DNA from: Rubripirellula amarantea
GTDB taxonomy: Bacteria; Planctomycetota; Planctomycetia; Pirellulales; Pirellulaceae
Direction of reading: 5' to 3'
NCBI RefSeq assembly: GCF_007859865.1
Contig: NZ_SJPI01000001.1
Location: 2,851,406 to 2,915,405 of the forward strand
DNA length: 64,000 nucleotides
Shown piece after piece: positions 15,221-33,463 of the stretch (position 1 is its first letter; each line of letters begins with the position of its first letter). Both the position numbers and the translations under genes were made by a program. The notes beneath the pieces are model-generated. The model did not search any database, was not told where the DNA came from, and saw only the letters and a program-made list of their open reading frames with translations.

Positions 15221-16198
15221 CTAAGACCCAGCTTGAACGACGGGCTGGGTGTGCCGGTCGCTGCAAAGAACCACCAGCAAATTTGAAACAAGCGACGCTC
15301 GTTGGTCCGCGGTCAATTCGACAATCTCATCCCGTTTGAGATGCTCCAATGCCATCTCGACCATACCGACGGCTCCATCGACGATTTTGGTTCGGGCCGC
15401 AACCACTGCGCCTGCCTGTTGACGCTGCAACATTGCCGCTGCGATTTCCGGAGCGTACGCGAGGTGACTGATCCGAGCTTCCGAGACGTGAACGCCAGCC
15501 TTGCCTAGTCGCTCTTGAATGTCGGCGCATAGTTGATCGCAGATCTCATCCGTGTTGCCACGAAGTGACACTTCGTGATCATCGTGATCGTAGGGGTAGC
15601 GGGTCGCCAAGCTTCTTAGCGCGGCTTCGCTTTGAACTTCAACATAGTGTTCGTAATCGTCCACCTCAAACAAAGCCTCTGCGGTATCCACTACTTTCCA
15701 AACCACCACCGCCGATATTTCGATTGGATTGCCGTCTCGGTCATTCACCTTGGATGGTCGGCTCGCGGTGCGTGACTTCGCTTGCGTGATAACGCCTTGC
15801 TGCGTCTTTTGTTCTGGTAACGACGAAGAGCCCGTCTCGAAGTTTCGAATTCGCAATGAAACCTTTCGCTTGGACAGAAATGGGTTGACCCAAAAGAAGC
15901 CCGACTTTTTGACCGTGCCTTTGTAATCACCAAATAGCAGCAGTACGCGCGAGTCATTGGGGGCAATCGCCATCAATCCGAACAAGGAAATGAACCCTGC
16001 AACGCCCAGCACGATCGCTAAGGGAATGGCCAGAATCCCCGTCCCACTAATCACTCCCATCGCAAATAGAAGCGGCGCCAAAAGCATGCAGCCTAACCCC
16101 ATCATCAATGGCACCCACGCTGACATGGGCGATTCAATCAATCTTTCATGAATCAGAGGCGACTGGCGGGTGGAACTCGTTTGACTTGATTCGGACAT
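15221..16198 (-). CDS. SPFH/Band 7 domain membrane protein
   Basis: 325 residues. Two adjacent membrane segments (MSAWVPLMMGLGCMLLAPLL and ILAIPLAIVLGVAGFISLFG) precede an SPFH domain with typical features: SRVLLLFGDYKGTVKKSGFFW, RDGNPIEISAVVVWKV, VEVQSEAALRSLATRYPYD, and the post-domain helix LGKAGVHVSEARISHLAYAPEIA. The C-terminus is a short helical tail (AAMLQRQQAGAVVAARTKIVDGA). It resembles the HflK/stomatin side of the superfamily and lacks the long coiled coil of flotillin. Proposed role: membrane microdomain scaffold. A frame extension to 16297 exists, but the ATG at 16198 (MSESSQTSS) fits better. No NfeD or protease neighbour. Confidence 0.85.
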   Translation of the reverse strand: MSESSQTSSTRQSPLIHERLIESPMSAWVPLMMGLGCMLLAPLLFAMGVISGTGILAIPLAIVLGVAGFISLFGLMAIAPNDSRVLLLFGDYKGTVKKSGFFWVNPFLSKRKVSLRIRNFETGSSSLPEQKTQQGVITQAKSRTASRPSKVNDRDGNPIEISAVVVWKVVDTAEALFEVDDYEHYVEVQSEAALRSLATRYPYDHDDHEVSLRGNTDEICDQLCADIQERLGKAGVHVSEARISHLAYAPEIAAAMLQRQQAGAVVAARTKIVDGAVGMVEMALEHLKRDEIVELTADQRASLVSNLLVVLCSDRHTQPVVQAGS

Positions 16199-16557
16199 CA
16201 ATGTTTCTCGCAACCAGGATGAAGGGAGTGCAGGAACACCGTCGTTCACGCATACAATAATATGGCTCAAAAACGTCCCGCAGAGGGCGCGCGTCAACTC
16301 GTTTAATTACCAGACACGTTTATCAAGCGTTCGGCCGCGTAACGCTATGGGGCCCACATACCTTCGGCTTCACCTGGGTTGCTCACCAGAGGCTTCTTTG
16401 TTGGCTAAAATAGCCGGTCGGTCCAGACGCCATCTTCTGCTTCCACGTTGGGAGCAAGGCATCGCTGAAAAACGCGAACAAGGCGGTAGTGTTTGGTCAC
16501 GTTACTGTTCCGTCACCGGCAACGATTCTGCTGGTCGCTTCTTAAATTCGAAATGTC
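16199..16557. other. 359-base divergent intergenic region
   Basis: It separates the minus-strand SPFH gene from the plus-strand CBM9-like gene and must contain both promoters. I see no RNA gene, repeat array or strong palindrome in it. Confidence 0.5.
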
Positions 16558-25450: not shown

Positions 25451-28400
25451 TTATGGTTCCGGGTCGTCTTCAAAGCTTTGCTGGACGGCTCGATAGTTCG
25501 CAAGTACCGCATCGATCTGCTGTTGCAGTTTCGTCAGGTCACGGCCATTTTCGATCGATTCGTTCATAATCGGACGCATCCATTCCTGCATTAGGTGGAA
25601 CTGGCCTTTGACTAAATCAGCCAGGACTCGTGGCACTTTGTGTTGGACCAGGAACTTTTGGTCCGGTGGTGACGCCGCTTGTTGCTTCGCAATCAATTCC
25701 AACCTTTCGCTAGTGGATTGTATTGCCGTTCGGATTGATTCCATTCGCGCGTCCATCCGTTCTTCCGATGCGTTGTCGTCCACGGCCAGCGCCCTTAAAA
25801 TCACTTGGCGAATGGATTCCAAGCCGTCTCGCATCGATGCTAGTTGCCGCATTAATTGACCGGCTTGGTCTTCGCTGTCCATGCCAGCCATGCGGGTGCT
25901 TTCCACGTAAGCATATTTGATCGCGTCCCAACGCTCTTTCTCGTCCGGCGTCAGGATATCCATCAACTCTTTGAACTTAAGCACATTGGCCTCGTTGTCC
26001 GTCGTCAGCGTTTGCGCATCCTGTTCGTAACTGCTGACAATTAAAGATTGCAGTTCGCGGTCATTCATCACCGAGGCCACTTTTTCGGCCATTCGATTCA
26101 TGTTTCGATAACTCCCCTGCAACTTGAAGGGAGGTTCGGTGCGGTAGGCGTCCGCTTGGGCGGCCGAGCGAATGTAGGCTCGGTTGACCTTCAGTACGAC
26201 GTCGCGAACCTTCAGCAATTTTCGCATCACGCTAAACATGTCGCGAACTTGGTCGGATGAAAAATTGCCCAGTAGTTCCATGCCTTCCAACGAATCTCGC
26301 CCAGCAGCCTGGATGATGGCACGGGCATCGTCGGGCGAAGCTGTCGATAGGGGTGCCAGCGTTGGGTTGCTGGTCAAGCAGTTTTCCAGATAGCTCATCT
26401 CGAACGCGTCCGCGGCGTCGCCAATGATCTCGCCTAGGTTGTACACATCCGCCCGGTTGGAAAGCATGTCGGGGACTTGGAATCGTTCGCCGCTTTCGGT
26501 GTACGGATTGCCGGCCATTACGACCGCGACCCGCCGACCACGTAAGTCGTAAGTTCGAGTCTTGCCGTTTCGAACCCCTTCGATCTTGCGAGTCGCATCA
26601 CAAAGAGAGATGAACTTTTGAAGCAGTTCCGGGTGGGTGTGTTGAATGTCGTCTAGATAGAGCATGACGTTGTCGCCCATCTCCAAAGCCAAGTTGAGAC
26701 GTTGGATTTCCTCGCGAGCTGCAGCATTGGGTGCCTCATCAGGGTCAAGCGAGGTCACTCCGTGCCCAATCGCCGGACCATTGATTTTCATGAACACGAT
26801 GCCGAGGCGATTTGCGACGTATTCCATCAGGGTCGTTTTGCCGTAGCCGGGCGGCGAGATTAGCAACAACAATCCCATCCGGTCGGTACGTTTGTCTTCA
26901 CCGGCGGCGCCCATTTGTTTGGCAAGGTTGTCGCCGATCAGGGGAAGGTAAACTTCGTCGAGCAATCGGTTGCGAACGAAACTGGTCAAGACGCGTGGTT
27001 TGAATTCCTCCAATCGCATGTCATCACGAGCGCTCTCGACCAACCTTGATTTCGTCTGATTCATCCGCCGGAATCGGGGGACAACGTCCGTTTGGTAGTT
27101 GCGCACTCGGGCTAGCATTTCGTGATAATGAACCGTCATGGAGCCTTTCTGAATGCGTGAATGGCTGCCAGCGAGTCCGGTGATTTCAGTTGCCAAATTC
27201 GCCGAGACAACTCGTGCGTGTTTCGGTCCGCCGTTGGCAATCACCCACGCCACTTCGTCGCGGTAGGCAACCGCAGGATCGGTCGGCATTTCATCCGCAC
27301 GCGAGTTCAAGTACGCATCCGCCCAATTTCGCGAAAGCACAAACCGGCGAAGGGGGTCCGATTCTTTCGTGATGACTGCGTCAAGCAATTTGCTGCGGTC
27401 GATCTCGGGAATCGACTCGCAGAAATGCTGGTACAGCTTGCTCGCTCGGTTGCTCAGCGCCCACGTGTCGGGGTCGGTGGTCAATTGATCGAAAAGATAG
27501 TTGGCTACGCGCTCGGGAGTGACCTCGGGAGCAAACGACGCAAAAACATCATCGGTTCCTGTGGAAACAACCGACTGAAGACGCTGGCGAAACTCGACGG
27601 CTGGACGAGCCATCGGAAATGCGGATGCCAGGTTGGCAAAACCACTGATCCAATGCAACAACGCTGCTCGTGTGTCGCTGGCAACGACCTCGAAGAAGAT
27701 GATCAACGATGCTGCACGAACGGATGGAGAATGACGGAGCAAGCCAATTGAATTATGGATGTGAGTCAGCGTTTGGAAGATTAGCGTTGCATCCCGATCA
27801 TGAACACCTTTGGCGTATCCTTCGTCAAACTTGCCATCGATCGACGGCGTGACCCCCTGTTCGAACGCTTCGACCGCCAAGTATTCCGATCGGTACACGT
27901 CAGAGTTTTCACTGATTAGTTCTTGCCCCCACAAGTCTTTCGCCGATGCGAGCGCTTCATCCCTAAGGGGTTCAAAGAATTGAGTGCCGGTTAAGTGCAA
28001 ACAGAGTTCGCCACCACGAAGCACCGTTGTTAAATCGAGAGGTTGATTGTTCACCGCAAATCGCTGGTTGCCCAGGCGAATGATGTCGCCACCATCCTCG
28101 TACAAGTCTTGACGATCTTTTAGCTGACGGGTTGAATCCTCGCGAATCGTTTTCAACCGACTTTGCAAGTCTTCTACTCGAACGGCATCGTCGAGGGATT
28201 TTAGGTTCTCGATGATGTCGCGAACTTTTTCGACCATCAAGTCGCCGGCAAAGTAAGCAGCAATATCATCCGTCGATTCCATCTTACCGACGCGGGACTC
28301 GATGCCTTTGAGGATGCGTTTGGCGGCTGCATCTAACGATTCAGCACGTCGGTTGCGTTTCTCGACCAAGGAAACTTTGCGAGATTCAAACGCAGCGTAA

Positions 28401-30607
28401 ACGTCATCGCGGCGTTCGGCTAACTGGACCACGAAATCATCAAATTCTGCGAAACGGCCTTCGAGTTCCTCAAGCTGTACCATCACCTTGGTTAAGTATT
28501 CATCACACTTGGTCGGCGAATCTGAAACATCAAGGTATCCCGCAACGGTTTGCTCGATCAACTTCAACTGCGACGCAAATTCGGCTTTGCCTTCGACGCT
28601 GACCAGTTCACTGACACGAGCTCTCAGCGAACTGCGAACTCGATTGAGCGAACCGAACACCTCGGAAATGGAATCAATGATTTCCGTTCGTTTAGTAGCG
28701 TCATCGATCCTTAAATTGCTGACCGTTTCAGTCAGCAATTCCAGTTGAGAAGCCCCTTCGTCGATTTCTTTCTCAAGCGTCTTCGCCTCCGCAACCGTTT
28801 TCACGGTTTCGACTTTGTTGCCGGCATCTTGGACGCGAACGGTGTACGGATTCAAGGCGCCTGGTGTGAGCAGGAAGTCGACGCATCGTCGACTGACTCG
28901 CTCAGCTCGTTCCGCAGTTTCCCGCTCGAGTGATTCGACCAAAGCCTCATCGACATAGCGAAGTTCTTTTAACCCGAGTGCGTGTCCGCGTTGTTGCCGC
29001 AGGCTCGAGAGAACGTTCACGAAATCGTCGATGGTTTCAAAACGCCCCCGCTCGATCGACTTGATCAATTCGCCAATCGACTTTTGAACTTCCTTTGTCT
29101 TCGCATCGGTGTCTCGACGAACGCGAACGACCTTTTCAAACTCTTCGACCGCCGCTTCGGCAGCTTGGCGGATCGCTCGAATCGGTTTTGCCAGCGACTC
29201 GGTTTCCGGTTTGTCGATCCAGAAGTAAGCGTCAAGAATATCCGCTGATTTTTTGGCGAGATCGACATACAATCCTTCGTAGGAGTCGTCCTTGTCGATG
29301 AGTTGCAGCAGTTCGCTGCACTCGGCCATGCCTCGCACGATCTCCTTGTTGCCAATCTTGAAAAGCAGCGAATCGGTTTGGTTCTCGGGAACAAAGTTTT
29401 CGCTGGTGAATGGCGTTTGCCAGATTTGAATGGCGTGGTGTTTCGCGGGATCTTCTTGCGCTTTAAAGACGACCATTTCGCCGCGGTCAAAGAACGTCTG
29501 ACCATGGCAAACCAGCGGCGTGTCAACGGTTTGGCGAATAAGGTTGTATCGCAGTTGAACGTAGGTGCCCGAGGCCGGGTTGTAGAACAAGTACAAGTAG
29601 TCTTCGCCATTGGGGGCAGCAATCGTGCGTTGATAACGCATGTCGCTAAGCCCGTGATCGAAGCGTTTGAATTCACCAGTTTGCAGGTAGTAACCGCCCG
29701 GAAAAATCACTCCGTGGTCGCCCGGTAGCATCACGCAAGAGTGCTCGATTTCGTCGAGTCGCATGACCTTGGACAACTTAGAATTAAAGATCAGATACCG
29801 AGTCTTTTGTTCCTGGTAGGGTCGCATCTTAAGCAGAACCAAGTTGCCTAAAACCGCGTAATGGACCTCGGCATCGTCGAGCGTTTGATCAGGATTGTCG
29901 ACCGGTTCGGCATAGATACCTTCACCACTGCCGGTATTGTTCTCGACCTTGATAGTTAAGTCGCCACCGACCGTTTCCACAAAAACTAGATCTTCGATCG
30001 AAATGTGAGGGTGTGCGCCGTAGTGGTGTTGATCACGCGTGGTGCGGGTCCAGCGGAATTCATGCTGGGGTGGATCTCGTACTTCATGTTCGCTTCGATT
30101 GTCGAGATACTCAATCGCGTTGGGTGTGACTCGCCACTTGAACGACTTGATGTCTCGCGCGGTCTTTCCGACCTGGAATACCATGTGCAGCATCGGTCCA
30201 TCGCGAAAAAAGCGAACAAACCGAGTGTCTTTGTAGAACCGATACAATTCGTGGAAGTCGTTGACGAATCGATCTTGTTGAATCAGGTCGAGTGGTTGCT
30301 CGTGAAATTGGTGGTCGCGAAGTTCGTAAGCGGAAAAAACGTCAGCGAGACCAATATCCGTTTTGAGCCCAAACTGAACGTTGTACCCGAGCAGGAACTG
30401 ATCTCCGATGGCGACTAGATCACGCGGCGTACAGTTGTGGTCCGTCGTCACCCGCTCAGTCGCTACGAGCGTGGTTTCGATGTTTCCGAAGACTTCCGCG
30501 CGAGCTTCGTTTAGTTTACCTATGCGGTCATGCAGATCGCTGGCTGCTTCACGCAAGCGATTGCGAAGCACCTCGTAAGTTCCAGCGGCTAGCTTGGATT
30601 CAGGCAT
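25451..30607 (-). CDS. Giant AAA+ ATPase of the DUF3686 / 'DNA repair ATPase' family
   Basis: 1718 residues. The N-terminal 450 residues are mainly beta and resemble what I recall as DUF3686 (FGNIETTLVATERVTTDHNC, FLLGYNVQFGLKT). Long coiled coils fill about 480-870. The AAA+ module is C-terminal: Walker A SPPGYGKTT with Lys1257, Walker B MLYLDDIQ with Asp1319/Asp1320, sensor 1 MAGNPYTES near 1364, and an arginine (MLSNRADVY) near 1389 as candidate finger. Helices follow to the end. The ATG at 30607 is preferred to a TTG at 30631. It lies 82 bases downstream of the flotillin gene and is probably in the same operon. The 'DNA repair' label is a family name; the neighbours suggest a membrane-linked remodeller instead. 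Confidence 0.87.
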   Translation of the reverse strand: MPESKLAAGTYEVLRNRLREAASDLHDRIGKLNEARAEVFGNIETTLVATERVTTDHNCTPRDLVAIGDQFLLGYNVQFGLKTDIGLADVFSAYELRDHQFHEQPLDLIQQDRFVNDFHELYRFYKDTRFVRFFRDGPMLHMVFQVGKTARDIKSFKWRVTPNAIEYLDNRSEHEVRDPPQHEFRWTRTTRDQHHYGAHPHISIEDLVFVETVGGDLTIKVENNTGSGEGIYAEPVDNPDQTLDDAEVHYAVLGNLVLLKMRPYQEQKTRYLIFNSKLSKVMRLDEIEHSCVMLPGDHGVIFPGGYYLQTGEFKRFDHGLSDMRYQRTIAAPNGEDYLYLFYNPASGTYVQLRYNLIRQTVDTPLVCHGQTFFDRGEMVVFKAQEDPAKHHAIQIWQTPFTSENFVPENQTDSLLFKIGNKEIVRGMAECSELLQLIDKDDSYEGLYVDLAKKSADILDAYFWIDKPETESLAKPIRAIRQAAEAAVEEFEKVVRVRRDTDAKTKEVQKSIGELIKSIERGRFETIDDFVNVLSSLRQQRGHALGLKELRYVDEALVESLERETAERAERVSRRCVDFLLTPGALNPYTVRVQDAGNKVETVKTVAEAKTLEKEIDEGASQLELLTETVSNLRIDDATKRTEIIDSISEVFGSLNRVRSSLRARVSELVSVEGKAEFASQLKLIEQTVAGYLDVSDSPTKCDEYLTKVMVQLEELEGRFAEFDDFVVQLAERRDDVYAAFESRKVSLVEKRNRRAESLDAAAKRILKGIESRVGKMESTDDIAAYFAGDLMVEKVRDIIENLKSLDDAVRVEDLQSRLKTIREDSTRQLKDRQDLYEDGGDIIRLGNQRFAVNNQPLDLTTVLRGGELCLHLTGTQFFEPLRDEALASAKDLWGQELISENSDVYRSEYLAVEAFEQGVTPSIDGKFDEGYAKGVHDRDATLIFQTLTHIHNSIGLLRHSPSVRAASLIIFFEVVASDTRAALLHWISGFANLASAFPMARPAVEFRQRLQSVVSTGTDDVFASFAPEVTPERVANYLFDQLTTDPDTWALSNRASKLYQHFCESIPEIDRSKLLDAVITKESDPLRRFVLSRNWADAYLNSRADEMPTDPAVAYRDEVAWVIANGGPKHARVVSANLATEITGLAGSHSRIQKGSMTVHYHEMLARVRNYQTDVVPRFRRMNQTKSRLVESARDDMRLEEFKPRVLTSFVRNRLLDEVYLPLIGDNLAKQMGAAGEDKRTDRMGLLLLISPPGYGKTTLMEYVANRLGIVFMKINGPAIGHGVTSLDPDEAPNAAAREEIQRLNLALEMGDNVMLYLDDIQHTHPELLQKFISLCDATRKIEGVRNGKTRTYDLRGRRVAVVMAGNPYTESGERFQVPDMLSNRADVYNLGEIIGDAADAFEMSYLENCLTSNPTLAPLSTASPDDARAIIQAAGRDSLEGMELLGNFSSDQVRDMFSVMRKLLKVRDVVLKVNRAYIRSAAQADAYRTEPPFKLQGSYRNMNRMAEKVASVMNDRELQSLIVSSYEQDAQTLTTDNEANVLKFKELMDILTPDEKERWDAIKYAYVESTRMAGMDSEDQAGQLMRQLASMRDGLESIRQVILRALAVDDNASEERMDARMESIRTAIQSTSERLELIAKQQAASPPDQKFLVQHKVPRVLADLVKGQFHLMQEWMRPIMNESIENGRDLTKLQQQIDAVLANYRAVQQSFEDDPEP
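28714..28740. repeat. Perfect 10-base inverted repeat inside the giant ATPase gene
   Basis: AATTGCTGAC (28714-28723) and GTCAGCAATT (28731-28740) pair across a seven-base loop. It lies in the coiled-coil coding part (LLTETVSNL) and could form a hairpin in the mRNA or be a chance palindrome. Confidence 0.6.
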
Positions 30608-30689
30608 AGCGAAGTAGATGACCGGTACCAAAGAATGAAAAGAAGAGCGTAGGGCAGGCTCTCACCGGCCCTACGACAAAAGCATGGTT

Positions 30690-32735
30690 CTATGACGCCG
30701 AACCGTTAGTGCCGGCACTGACGTTTGGTGACAGCAGGCGGCTGGCCTTTTGGTCGGCCACATTGGCTGTGCCCGCCATGCTTAGCAAGCTCGTCAATTG
30801 CGTCCGCACATCGTCGGTCTTTGCCATGCCCATCAATTTGGCGATCAAAGCTGCGATGGATAGATCCTTAACACCGTCGGTATCCAGGTTGAACTGAGCC
30901 ATCAATTCCTTGATCTGGTCACGGAAGTATTCGGCATTGCCATCGAAGAAGGTGTCCTTGATGTCCGTGGCCACCTTGCTGTTGTAGACAAAGCGATCAA
31001 TCGCTTTGCCACCCTTAACAGCCGAGGTGATTTGCTCGAAGAACTCTCCATCGCCGCCGACGATGTCGATACGAGCGGCTCTTAAGGCGTCGCCCACGAC
31101 TCCAGCTTGTGATTCGGCAATGCCTCGCTGAGCGTCAATGGCTGCGATCTCAACTTGCTTTTCTTTCTCGAGTCGCAGTTTGAATTCCTCGTGGTCCTTG
31201 CCGACGCTGTCGAGCTGTTTCATCGCTTCGGCTTTCTCGGTGATACCGATCGCTTCGGCACGATACTTCTCGAGTTCGACGTTCGCTTCGGCGAGACCTT
31301 GCTTCTCGGTTGCCGATGCTTTGGCTTCGATCACGGTCGCCTCGGCAAGTCCCGGCGCCGCGGTGGATGCGGCATCGGCTTCAGCCAACATCTTGGTTGC
31401 GGCAGTTTCCTTCTCTGCCGCGTCGCGACGAGCTTCGGCATCAATACGAATCTTTTCAGCAAGTAACTCGGCTGATTCCTTTTCTGCTTGAGCCAGCTTG
31501 GTAAGCCGTATCAATTCTTCTTCGCCCTTCATTTCGGCGGCCGTGACTTGCACTTTCTTCAAACGATCGGCACGAGCAAACTCTTCAGTGTCCTTGATGC
31601 GTTCTTGCTCCTCCACAACCGCACGTTCGACAGCGACTCGTTCACGTATCACTTCTTGAATGTTTCGTTTCTCAACCTCGATCGCCTTTTCTTTCTCGAC
31701 TTCGGCCACGCCGACAACGCGAAGACGTTCAGTCATTTCTAAATCACGGTCGCGATTGACTCGTTCGAGTTCGACCGCATCGGTCTTTTCTTTGTTTCGC
31801 TGGGCAACCAGGATTTGACGGCTCTTGTTTTCTTCCGCCACACCGACTTCTTCTTCGGTGATGATGCGGGCGCGTTCAGATTCGAGCTTCTGTTCGGCCT
31901 GGACCTTCGCGGCAGCAGCGTTTTCGCGGGCCGTGATTTCGGCGATTTCTCGCTTTTGCTTTTCAACGGCTTCGACTCGTTGACGTTCGAGTGCCAGGAT
32001 GGTTTCTTCCGCTTCGACGTCTTGTTTCTTGAGCGTTTTCTCTTTGTCGCGTGTGAATTGGTTTTCCTTGACCTTTTCCATCGACGTCAGTTCAGTGATC
32101 TTCTTGATCCCCTCAGCGTCGAGGATGTTGGTCGGCGACAACATCTCTAAAGGCGTTTGTTCCAAATAGTCAATCGCTGCGTCATCGAGCTTGTACCCGT
32201 TTAGATCGGTGCCAATGACTTTCAGGATTTCATCCTTGAACTTGTCACGTTGATCATACAAGTCAATGAACTCGAATTGCTTGCCGACCGTCTTCAGTGC
32301 TTCGCTGAACTTAGCATCGAAGAGTTCACGCATCGTTTCCATTTCGCTGCAACGCTTTGCACCAATGGATTGAGCAACCACCTTCATTTCTTCTTTGGAG
32401 CTGTCAACTCGGATGAAGAAGGCGACTTTAATGTCGGCACGAATGTTGTCGCGGCAAATCAATCCTTCGCTGCCTTGTCGGCTAATTTCGAAGCTCTTGA
32501 GCGTCAAGTCCATGAACTCATAGCGATGGAACAAAGGCACCACGAACGTGCCTTCAGCGGTGTAGACCGCGAGTCCACTGATTCCTGATTTGATGATCGC
32601 TTTGTCAGGACCGACGACGATGTAGCATTTCTTGAACATGATCAAGATCGCAATGAATGCGATGATTGCGATCGCGGCAGCCGCAGCCCAGAAAAAGGGC
32701 CAGCTAAATTCGGCAAGCAATTGAGGGTGGGTCAC
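30690..32735 (-). CDS. Flotillin-family protein (YqiK-like)
   Basis: 681 residues. One membrane segment (FFWAAAAAIAIIAFIAILIMF, near 14-34) is followed by the SPFH domain (PDKAIIKSGISGLAVYTAEG, VPLFHRYEFMDLTLKSFEI, RDNIRADIKVAFFIRVD). A long Ala/Glu/Lys coiled coil (about 225-560) has the EA-rich repeats typical of flotillins. The C-terminal tail ends with a low-complexity Ser/Asn segment after a helical region. It should assemble membrane microdomain scaffolds. The start overlaps the stop of the YqiJ/NfeD-like gene (ATGA, 32732-32735), the same order as E. coli yqiJ-yqiK. The downstream AAA+ gene is 82 bases away. Longer than typical flotillins (about 500 residues). Confidence 0.9.
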   Translation of the reverse strand: MTHPQLLAEFSWPFFWAAAAAIAIIAFIAILIMFKKCYIVVGPDKAIIKSGISGLAVYTAEGTFVVPLFHRYEFMDLTLKSFEISRQGSEGLICRDNIRADIKVAFFIRVDSSKEEMKVVAQSIGAKRCSEMETMRELFDAKFSEALKTVGKQFEFIDLYDQRDKFKDEILKVIGTDLNGYKLDDAAIDYLEQTPLEMLSPTNILDAEGIKKITELTSMEKVKENQFTRDKEKTLKKQDVEAEETILALERQRVEAVEKQKREIAEITARENAAAAKVQAEQKLESERARIITEEEVGVAEENKSRQILVAQRNKEKTDAVELERVNRDRDLEMTERLRVVGVAEVEKEKAIEVEKRNIQEVIRERVAVERAVVEEQERIKDTEEFARADRLKKVQVTAAEMKGEEELIRLTKLAQAEKESAELLAEKIRIDAEARRDAAEKETAATKMLAEADAASTAAPGLAEATVIEAKASATEKQGLAEANVELEKYRAEAIGITEKAEAMKQLDSVGKDHEEFKLRLEKEKQVEIAAIDAQRGIAESQAGVVGDALRAARIDIVGGDGEFFEQITSAVKGGKAIDRFVYNSKVATDIKDTFFDGNAEYFRDQIKELMAQFNLDTDGVKDLSIAALIAKLMGMAKTDDVRTQLTSLLSMAGTANVADQKASRLLSPNVSAGTNGSAS

Positions 32736-33463
32736 GATGAGGACTCCGAAGGAAGTGAAGTGACTTTGTAAATTCGTTTCTCTCGGTCGAAACCGATGAT
32801 GAGGGCTTCCGTGCCTTTAGGAAGATGAGGCCCGTCGGTGCGAATGTTCAACAGGAGTGGCGCAGCTTGGGTTCGAAACTTGGCTTGTCCGAATTCGGGC
32901 GTTGCTTCCAGAGTGCTGATTTCACATGTAGCGCCGACCAGGTTACCGGCGTGATAGGAGGGGCCGGCGACGAAGTAACCGAGTAGCGGTTGTGTGATGA
33001 CCTTGGTAAGGAACGTGGCAATCACACCATTACGAATCGTTAGCAACAGGCTCGGTAAAAAGTTAGGGTCGTATCGTTTCGAATCAAACCCATGCCACAG
33101 CAGATACGAGACGATCCAAAAAGCACAGGCAAACACACCCGCCCAGATAATGACAGGCACTCGTCCGAAGTTGGTCACGCGTACGGATGCTGCGCCAATG
33201 CCTTGCCAAAAATCCCAGTCGGTTGGCACACCGTCGGGCACGTTAACGGCGACATCGGTATCAAGGTCCACACTTGCATCGAGATCAATACCGGTGCCAA
33301 CGTCGAGATCAGGGACGTCGAGATCAGGGGCGTCGAGTCCAAAATCAATCAATCCAAACATTGCCATCACGGTGTACAAAACCAAAATTCCCACCACGAT
33401 CGACGCGGGCCAAAGCGGCCCGACGAACATTTGATCGGCGATGAAATCTAGGGCTTCGTTCAC
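32732..33463 (-). CDS. NfeD/YqiJ-like membrane protein with OB-fold domain
   Basis: 243 residues. Membrane segments lie near 15-40 (LWPASIVVGILVLYTVMAMF) and 103-125 (VPVIIWAGVFACAFWIVSYL), with a possible third near 135-165. The C-terminal domain (NLVGATCEISTLEATPEFGQ, FREKRIYKV-like strands) fits the OB fold of NfeD/YqiJ proteins that partner flotillins. A periplasmic or lumenal Asp-rich stretch (DAPDLDVPDLDVGTGIDLDA) includes an exact 15-base tandem duplication. It is the first gene of the operon, coupled by ATGA to the flotillin. No serine protease domain is fused, as in the short NfeD class. Confidence 0.85.
   Translation of the reverse strand: MNEALDFIADQMFVGPLWPASIVVGILVLYTVMAMFGLIDFGLDAPDLDVPDLDVGTGIDLDASVDLDTDVAVNVPDGVPTDWDFWQGIGAASVRVTNFGRVPVIIWAGVFACAFWIVSYLLWHGFDSKRYDPNFLPSLLLTIRNGVIATFLTKVITQPLLGYFVAGPSYHAGNLVGATCEISTLEATPEFGQAKFRTQAAPLLLNIRTDGPHLPKGTEALIIGFDREKRIYKVTSLPSESSS
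33300..33329. repeat. 15-base in-frame tandem duplication in the NfeD/YqiJ-like gene
   Basis: ACGTCGAGATCAGGG occurs at 33300 and again at 33315 (followed by a partial third copy). It encodes the repeated Asp-rich PDLDV units. Confidence 0.85.

Follow-up and report, generated by a model that had tools for sequence, protein, structure and literature searches.

We find that three adjacent minus-strand genes of Rubripirellula amarantea, encoding a small YqiJ/NfeD-type membrane protein, a flotillin and a giant AAA+ ATPase, probably act as one functional unit, a flotillin-anchored, non-proteolytic AAA+ remodelling motor for envelope stress. The trio lies in a stretch of 64,000 nucleotides, referred to here as the window, and its genes, domains, motifs, co-inheritance and frequent independence from PspA were all observed. 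A sequence-only reading of the window had proposed a remodelling machine for membrane stress, and this idea is supported here. The three open reading frames are present as that reading had placed them:

32732 to 33463, minus strand: gene of the YqiJ/NfeD-type small membrane protein (open reading frame and translation, 243 codons, GTG start)
30690 to 32735, minus strand: flotillin gene of the YqiK kind (681 codons, GTG start, Band_7)
25451 to 30607, minus strand: gene of the DUF3686 giant AAA+ ATPase (1718 codons, PF12458 and PF25472)

The first two genes had been described as coupled through ATGA. The overlap of 4 bases is real, but it reads GTGA because the start codon of the flotillin gene is GTG. 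The spacing of 82 bases between the flotillin and ATPase genes is exact with the ATG start at 30607, and the ATPase frame is also open to an alternative start, TTG at 30631. The spacer contains an inverted repeat, GTAGGGC...GCCCTAC (window positions 30649-30674), that is present as a single copy in the genome. It was considered as an attenuator and rejected: the hairpin has a fold z-score of -1.2 and is not followed by a T-run, and attenuation is therefore not claimed. Promoter-like sites were not more frequent than in shuffled sequence, and terminator-like sites were merely about one standard deviation over the shuffles. A fourth component between flotillin and ATPase was likewise rejected, as the recurrent open reading frames inspected there by eye look like sporadic insertions (DUF559-, GxxExxY- and transposase-like). 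A second SPFH/Band_7 gene is found at 15221-16297 of the window (minus strand, 358 amino acids, E = 2.6e-22), about 9 kb from the ATPase gene, and Band_7 is matched five times across the whole genome.

The sequence-only reading had staked its proposal on linkage of the three genes in other genomes, and this linkage turned out to be conserved in Planctomycetota as well as in other phyla. DUF3686 occurs in 30 of the 199 Planctomycetota genomes sampled, a patchy distribution that counts against the remodelling-motor reading. A flotillin of the linked subtype was detected at 673 bits or more in exactly these 30 genomes and in none of the 169 negative ones, where the best match reached 229 bits; since the profile was built from linked flotillins, the result is that this subtype is never found alone in Planctomycetota, not that all flotillins need the ATPase. 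When the surroundings of the other DUF3686-positive Planctomycetota genomes besides the window were fetched, all three proteins were found by profile in 29 of 29 loci, with the flotillin upstream in each, and no further neighbour gene recurred beyond close relatives. Within the genus of the window, the ATPase is present in 17 of 19 genomes.

A scan of GTDB genomes gave at least 538 matched stretches, and it was keyed on PPGYGKTT and MAGNPYTE, so the exact conservation of those motifs is partly a product of selection. The best 80 of these loci, which we analysed, come from Planctomycetota, Bacteroidota, Verrucomicrobiota, Desulfobacterota, Bacillota, Lentisphaerota and others. Among these 80, a flotillin gene accompanies the ATPase in 61 of the 63 loci where 3.5 kb or more of upstream sequence was available, and YqiJ is also detectable in 57 of the 62 with 4.5 kb or more; the exceptions for flotillin (L084 and L085) carry the same flotillin type elsewhere in the genome at 670 bits or more. 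The ATPase and flotillin genes are co-oriented in 91 of 92 loci, the pair being on the opposite strand in L129, and the distances between the ATPases correlate with those between the flotillins (Mantel r = 0.81, 92 loci), as expected for genes that are passed on together. Further trios are found in Actinomycetota, Deinococcota and Gammaproteobacteria, on replicons of Streptomyces, Deinococcus and Pseudomonas, and on pQBR103 it is preceded by PspA, DUF2491, DUF350, DUF1190 and glutathionylspermidine-synthase-type genes. A three-gene order kept this widely is far beyond chance.

The small protein of the window matched no Pfam family, including YqiJ_N and YqiJ_OB. However, PF21001 YqiJ_N was matched (best 9.3e-6) by 6 of the 15 proteins that make up the orthologue alignment, and the YqiJ partner profile found a match at the same gene position in all 29 fetched planctomycete loci. 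The protein, with hydropathy peaks at 21-39 and 104-122, has an N-terminal transmembrane helix, a variable Asp-rich loop and a conserved N-G-x-V-P motif followed by membrane segments, and its C-terminal region aligns with the OB-fold part of its relatives. In the flotillin, a hydrophobic stretch at residues 17-35 precedes the SPFH/Band_7 domain (PF01145, residues 53-183, 3.7e-8 by Pfam), and a long coiled coil rich in Glu, Lys and Ala follows it. Among solved structures, no sequence relative was found at a useful E-value for the flotillin profile, the YqiJ profile or the N-terminal half of the ATPase.

Between the window ATPase and its counterparts in Rhodopirellula, Rubripirellula and Roseiconus the identity is 73-76%; in a Rubripirellula MAG (L067:9932-15247) the ATPase frame is split in two, by an assembly error or a real frameshift. 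By Pfam, residues 24-462 match the whole of PF12458 DUF3686 (model positions 1-448 of 448, 1.5e-193), and PF25472 DUF7902 (2.9e-28) and an AAA family are matched as well. The two halves of the protein were modelled with AlphaFold2 from 90 and 89 orthologues (mean pLDDT 85.8 and 84.5), and the beta-rich N-terminus and long coiled coil that had been read from the sequence are seen in these models. A helix at 8-40 is followed by a beta-rich, beta-propeller-like domain at about 46-400, a helical and coiled-coil part at about 414-835, a mixed linker region, the AAA+ module at about 1200-1510 and a variable helical tail. Beta-propellers were prominent among the Foldseek matches of the N-terminal half (clathrin terminal domain, KLHDC3 and prolyl oligopeptidase). 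No hydrophobic membrane segment was seen in the hydropathy profile of the ATPase and no protease domain was found in it. The AAA+ site consists of the following elements:

26831 to 26857, minus strand: Walker A SPPGYGKTT, residues 1251-1259, with Lys1257 (from the translation; invariant in alignments)
26639 to 26659, minus strand: Walker B YLDDIQH, residues 1317-1323 (from the translation; D1319/D1320 invariant)
26477 to 26518, minus strand: sensor 1 segment around MAGNPYTESGE, residues 1364-1374, with Asn1367 (from the translation and its invariance)

The length of 1718 residues and the positions of Lys1257 and Asp1319/Asp1320, as given in the sequence-only reading, are confirmed by the translation, and these residues are invariant in 20 aligned orthologues, as are N1367 of sensor 1, the candidate arginine finger R1385 and R1501 of sensor 2. 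The Asp pair of Walker B is invariant also in 89 sequences, and a search for the DDIQH motif matched 104 of 106, the other two being missed by the pattern. Most AAA+ proteins have Asp-Glu at this place. The sensor 1 segment of the window ATPase resembles the ATQNPxExxG motif of MoxR proteins, and in Foldseek searches with the AAA+ module NorQ came first (TM-score up to 0.59 by target, 0.2 by query), closely followed by CbbQ, Clp, RuvB and MCM. This suggests that the module is a MoxR-like remodelling chaperone, a reading based on NorQ and CbbQ as top fold matches of the model and on the NPYTESG segment of sensor 1. The placement is provisional: the best sequence matches of the AAA+ domain are Cdc48/p97 and RuvB (E ~1e-4), so it depends on low-score fold matches and one motif. 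Compared with the MoxR-type chaperones NorQ, CbbQ and RavA, the points of likeness are the leading fold matches (NorQ and CbbQ) and NPxxExxG at sensor 1, whereas the DUF3686 protein differs from them in its huge N-terminal propeller and coiled coil and in its Asp-Asp Walker B.

Operons of a Band-7/flotillin gene, a YqiJ/YuaF gene and a gene for an AAA+ protein with coiled coil and beta-propeller were described by Ravi et al. in 2024, who already listed abbreviated operons without CesT/Tir-PspA and suggested that PspA encoded elsewhere participates (PMC11237479). The window locus shares with them the three adjacent, co-oriented genes and the beta-propeller and coiled coil of the AAA+ protein; the full form needs CesT/Tir-PspA, while the window genome has no PspA_IM30 match and fits the abbreviated form. 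It is very unlikely, in our view, that the trio acts only together with a PspA encoded elsewhere. Such dependence would agree with the PspA_IM30 and CesT_Tir_1 genes directly upstream of the trio in about 20 mostly Bacteroidota loci, and with the higher frequency of PspA in ATPase-bearing Planctomycetota (23 of 30 genomes versus 37 of 169, Fisher p = 1.2e-8, uncorrected for kinship). However, PspA_IM30 has no match in the window's own genome, which is 99.6% complete, and for this genome the suggestion of a PspA from elsewhere fails. PspA was found in only 2 of the 19 genomes of the genus, and 15 of its 17 ATPase-bearing genomes are without detectable PspA, as are 7 of the 30 ATPase-bearing Planctomycetota genomes; a recognisable PspA is thus not a requirement of the trio, where absence is judged by the Pfam PspA_IM30 model, which a highly divergent PspA could escape.

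Several other neighbours were seen. In 22 loci, mainly of Bacteroidota (for example L099:4274-5029, minus strand), a divergent gene lies upstream of the CesT/Tir-PspA-YqiJ-flotillin-ATPase series; its product carries an HTH at the N-terminus and weakly matches Peptidase_S24 at the C-terminus, where the usual Ser-Lys pair is absent by eye. This HTH/S24-like gene is a candidate dedicated regulator of the trio. In L046, L052, L059 and L136 (Planctomycetota and Lentisphaerae) the trio is adjoined by a coiled-coil protein that is PspA-like but has no PspA_IM30 match, in some of them together with a protein of about 590-640 amino acids with an AAA domain, and these may correspond to what Ravi et al. 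described as a PspA/two-AAA pairing. A phospholipase-D-like gene is found near the trio in L101, L105, L123, L131 and L135 (PLDc_2 in the one tested), matching the HKD gene that Ravi et al. noted for Proteobacteria.

A literature search by the name DUF3686 returned nothing, and experimental data come from an operon of Pseudomonas aeruginosa, bacABCDEF (PA3732 onward), which is a single transcript and affects biofilm and rhamnolipids; when bacA is mutated, its products go up together, by 6-13.5 fold (PMC10948618). It encodes PspA, a short NfeD and a flotillin, followed by a "DNA repair" ATPase; the annotation of PA14_16190, now called bacE, is that of an ATPase with a part in DNA repair (PMC8855297), and bacE is assigned here by this annotation and not by sequence. 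The window locus differs from the bac operon in having neither bacA (DUF2170) nor bacB (PspA). In every sample infected with phage, PA3728-PA3732 were raised at both times measured (PMC12041424). As a point against an envelope-stress motor, PA3729 and PA3732 are given negative log2 fold changes in a transcriptome of heat shock (PMC4957987). Stress induction and co-transcription are literature results for the Pseudomonas version. PA3728, the Pseudomonas ATPase gene, also appears in a table of genes mutated across several cystic-fibrosis adaptation studies (PMC8190622). Flotillin membrane microdomains of Staphylococcus aureus are described as stabilising unfolded proteins (PMC11222466), and a Bacillus SPFH protein ties PspA to the membrane (PMC8581546). 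YqiJ-YqiK of Escherichia coli and YuaF-FloT of Bacillus subtilis resemble the trio in pairing an NfeD-type partner with a flotillin, but neither species has the DUF3686 ATPase (no match in the control genomes).

Induction by phage could also speak for an anti-phage or other defence module, with a membrane scaffold and the ATPase as sensor, and so could the patchy distribution, the phospholipase-D-like gene nearby in a few loci and one near-neighbour protein with a DrmC match. We consider this quite improbable, since phage induction fits an ordinary phage-shock response as well and the trio has no significant PADLOC match, the only hit being LmuB over the coiled coil (E = 0.025). The ATPase is absent from 50,697 phage records and present in 12 of 72,556 plasmid records, several of which are megaplasmids, second replicons or apparent whole chromosomes; PADLOC matches are about as frequent among near neighbours of the trio (6 of 67) as among far ones (4 of 67), and the ATPase is stable within the genus. 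A defence module, which the sequence-only reading had held open, is not supported by these sequence comparisons, and neither is a dedicated anti-phage system.

The family label PF12458 would make the protein an ATPase of DNA repair or chromosome partitioning, which we regard as extremely unlikely. The weak similarity to RuvB (1e-4) is limited to the P-loop region, and against RuvB models the ATPase scores 20-22 bits, below the cut-offs of 27 (Pfam) and 282-299 (NCBIfam). The mutator phenotype of a Shewanella flotillin mutant also points towards repair, but it has been ascribed to altered iron handling and oxidative damage (PMC1468410). Pfam finds no DNA-binding domain in the ATPase and no repair gene recurs in the neighbourhoods; instead, there is perfect co-occurrence with a membrane scaffold. 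The label had already been doubted from the sequence, and we agree, finding no support for DNA repair beyond it. The Shewanella flotillin gene in question, SO1377, adjoins a DUF1449 (YqiJ-like) gene, and its loss changes iron metabolism, the sensitivity to H2O2 and the mutation rate (PMC1468410). Together with the best fold matches, NorQ and CbbQ, which insert metal or activate enzymes (PMC13036017), this would suit an ATPase of MoxR type that matures one particular membrane metalloenzyme or respiratory complex, while flotillin and YqiJ only gather the client and the stress phenotypes are secondary. This we think unlikely: no client enzyme recurs as a neighbour in 109 loci, the trio spans very different metabolisms, and in a general look at the recurrent neighbour clusters none stood out as the VWA-domain partner that MoxR proteins typically have, a point also against the MoxR-like motor preferred here.

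For the flotillin-anchored remodelling motor that we prefer, the flotillin would assemble into a membrane-attached SPFH ring or cage, and the YqiJ protein, as the NfeD-type partner, would share its membrane patch. The DUF3686 protein, which is soluble, would be a ring-forming, MoxR-like AAA+ remodelling chaperone, presumably a hexamer, recruited to the scaffold by way of the beta-propeller-like and coiled-coil regions and probably docking on the flotillin. There it may unfold, extract or rearrange protein complexes, putatively membrane-associated ones, during envelope stress; PspA and the CesT/Tir chaperone would join in many lineages, with PspA being dispensable. The trio could in this way be a non-proteolytic counterpart of FtsH with HflK/C, where an AAA+ motor is also paired with an SPFH cage. 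HflK/C is not a flotillin, however, and in the DUF3686 protein neither a protease domain nor a membrane segment was found; that the two systems work alike is our hypothesis. It is possible, although we would not call it probable, that a self-contained, PspA-independent, MoxR-like and non-proteolytic motor with an Asp-Asp Walker B acts on a flotillin cage as a second widespread SPFH and AAA+ membrane proteostasis system beside FtsH-HflK/C.

This kind of operon is already known from Ravi et al. (2024), with bac as an experimental example; what is new here is the quantified pairing of the ATPase with a flotillin subtype, the PspA independence in the genus, the hint of a MoxR-like fold and the invariant Asp-Asp Walker B. 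The giant ATPase is present in hundreds of genomes (at least 538 matched stretches) and is commonly annotated as a "DNA repair ATPase", while the evidence favours the membrane. The usual picture of bacterial flotillins is one of passive scaffolds, and a motor so tightly tied to one flotillin subtype would supply them with an energy source, and the tight pairing makes both functions testable through single-gene removals.
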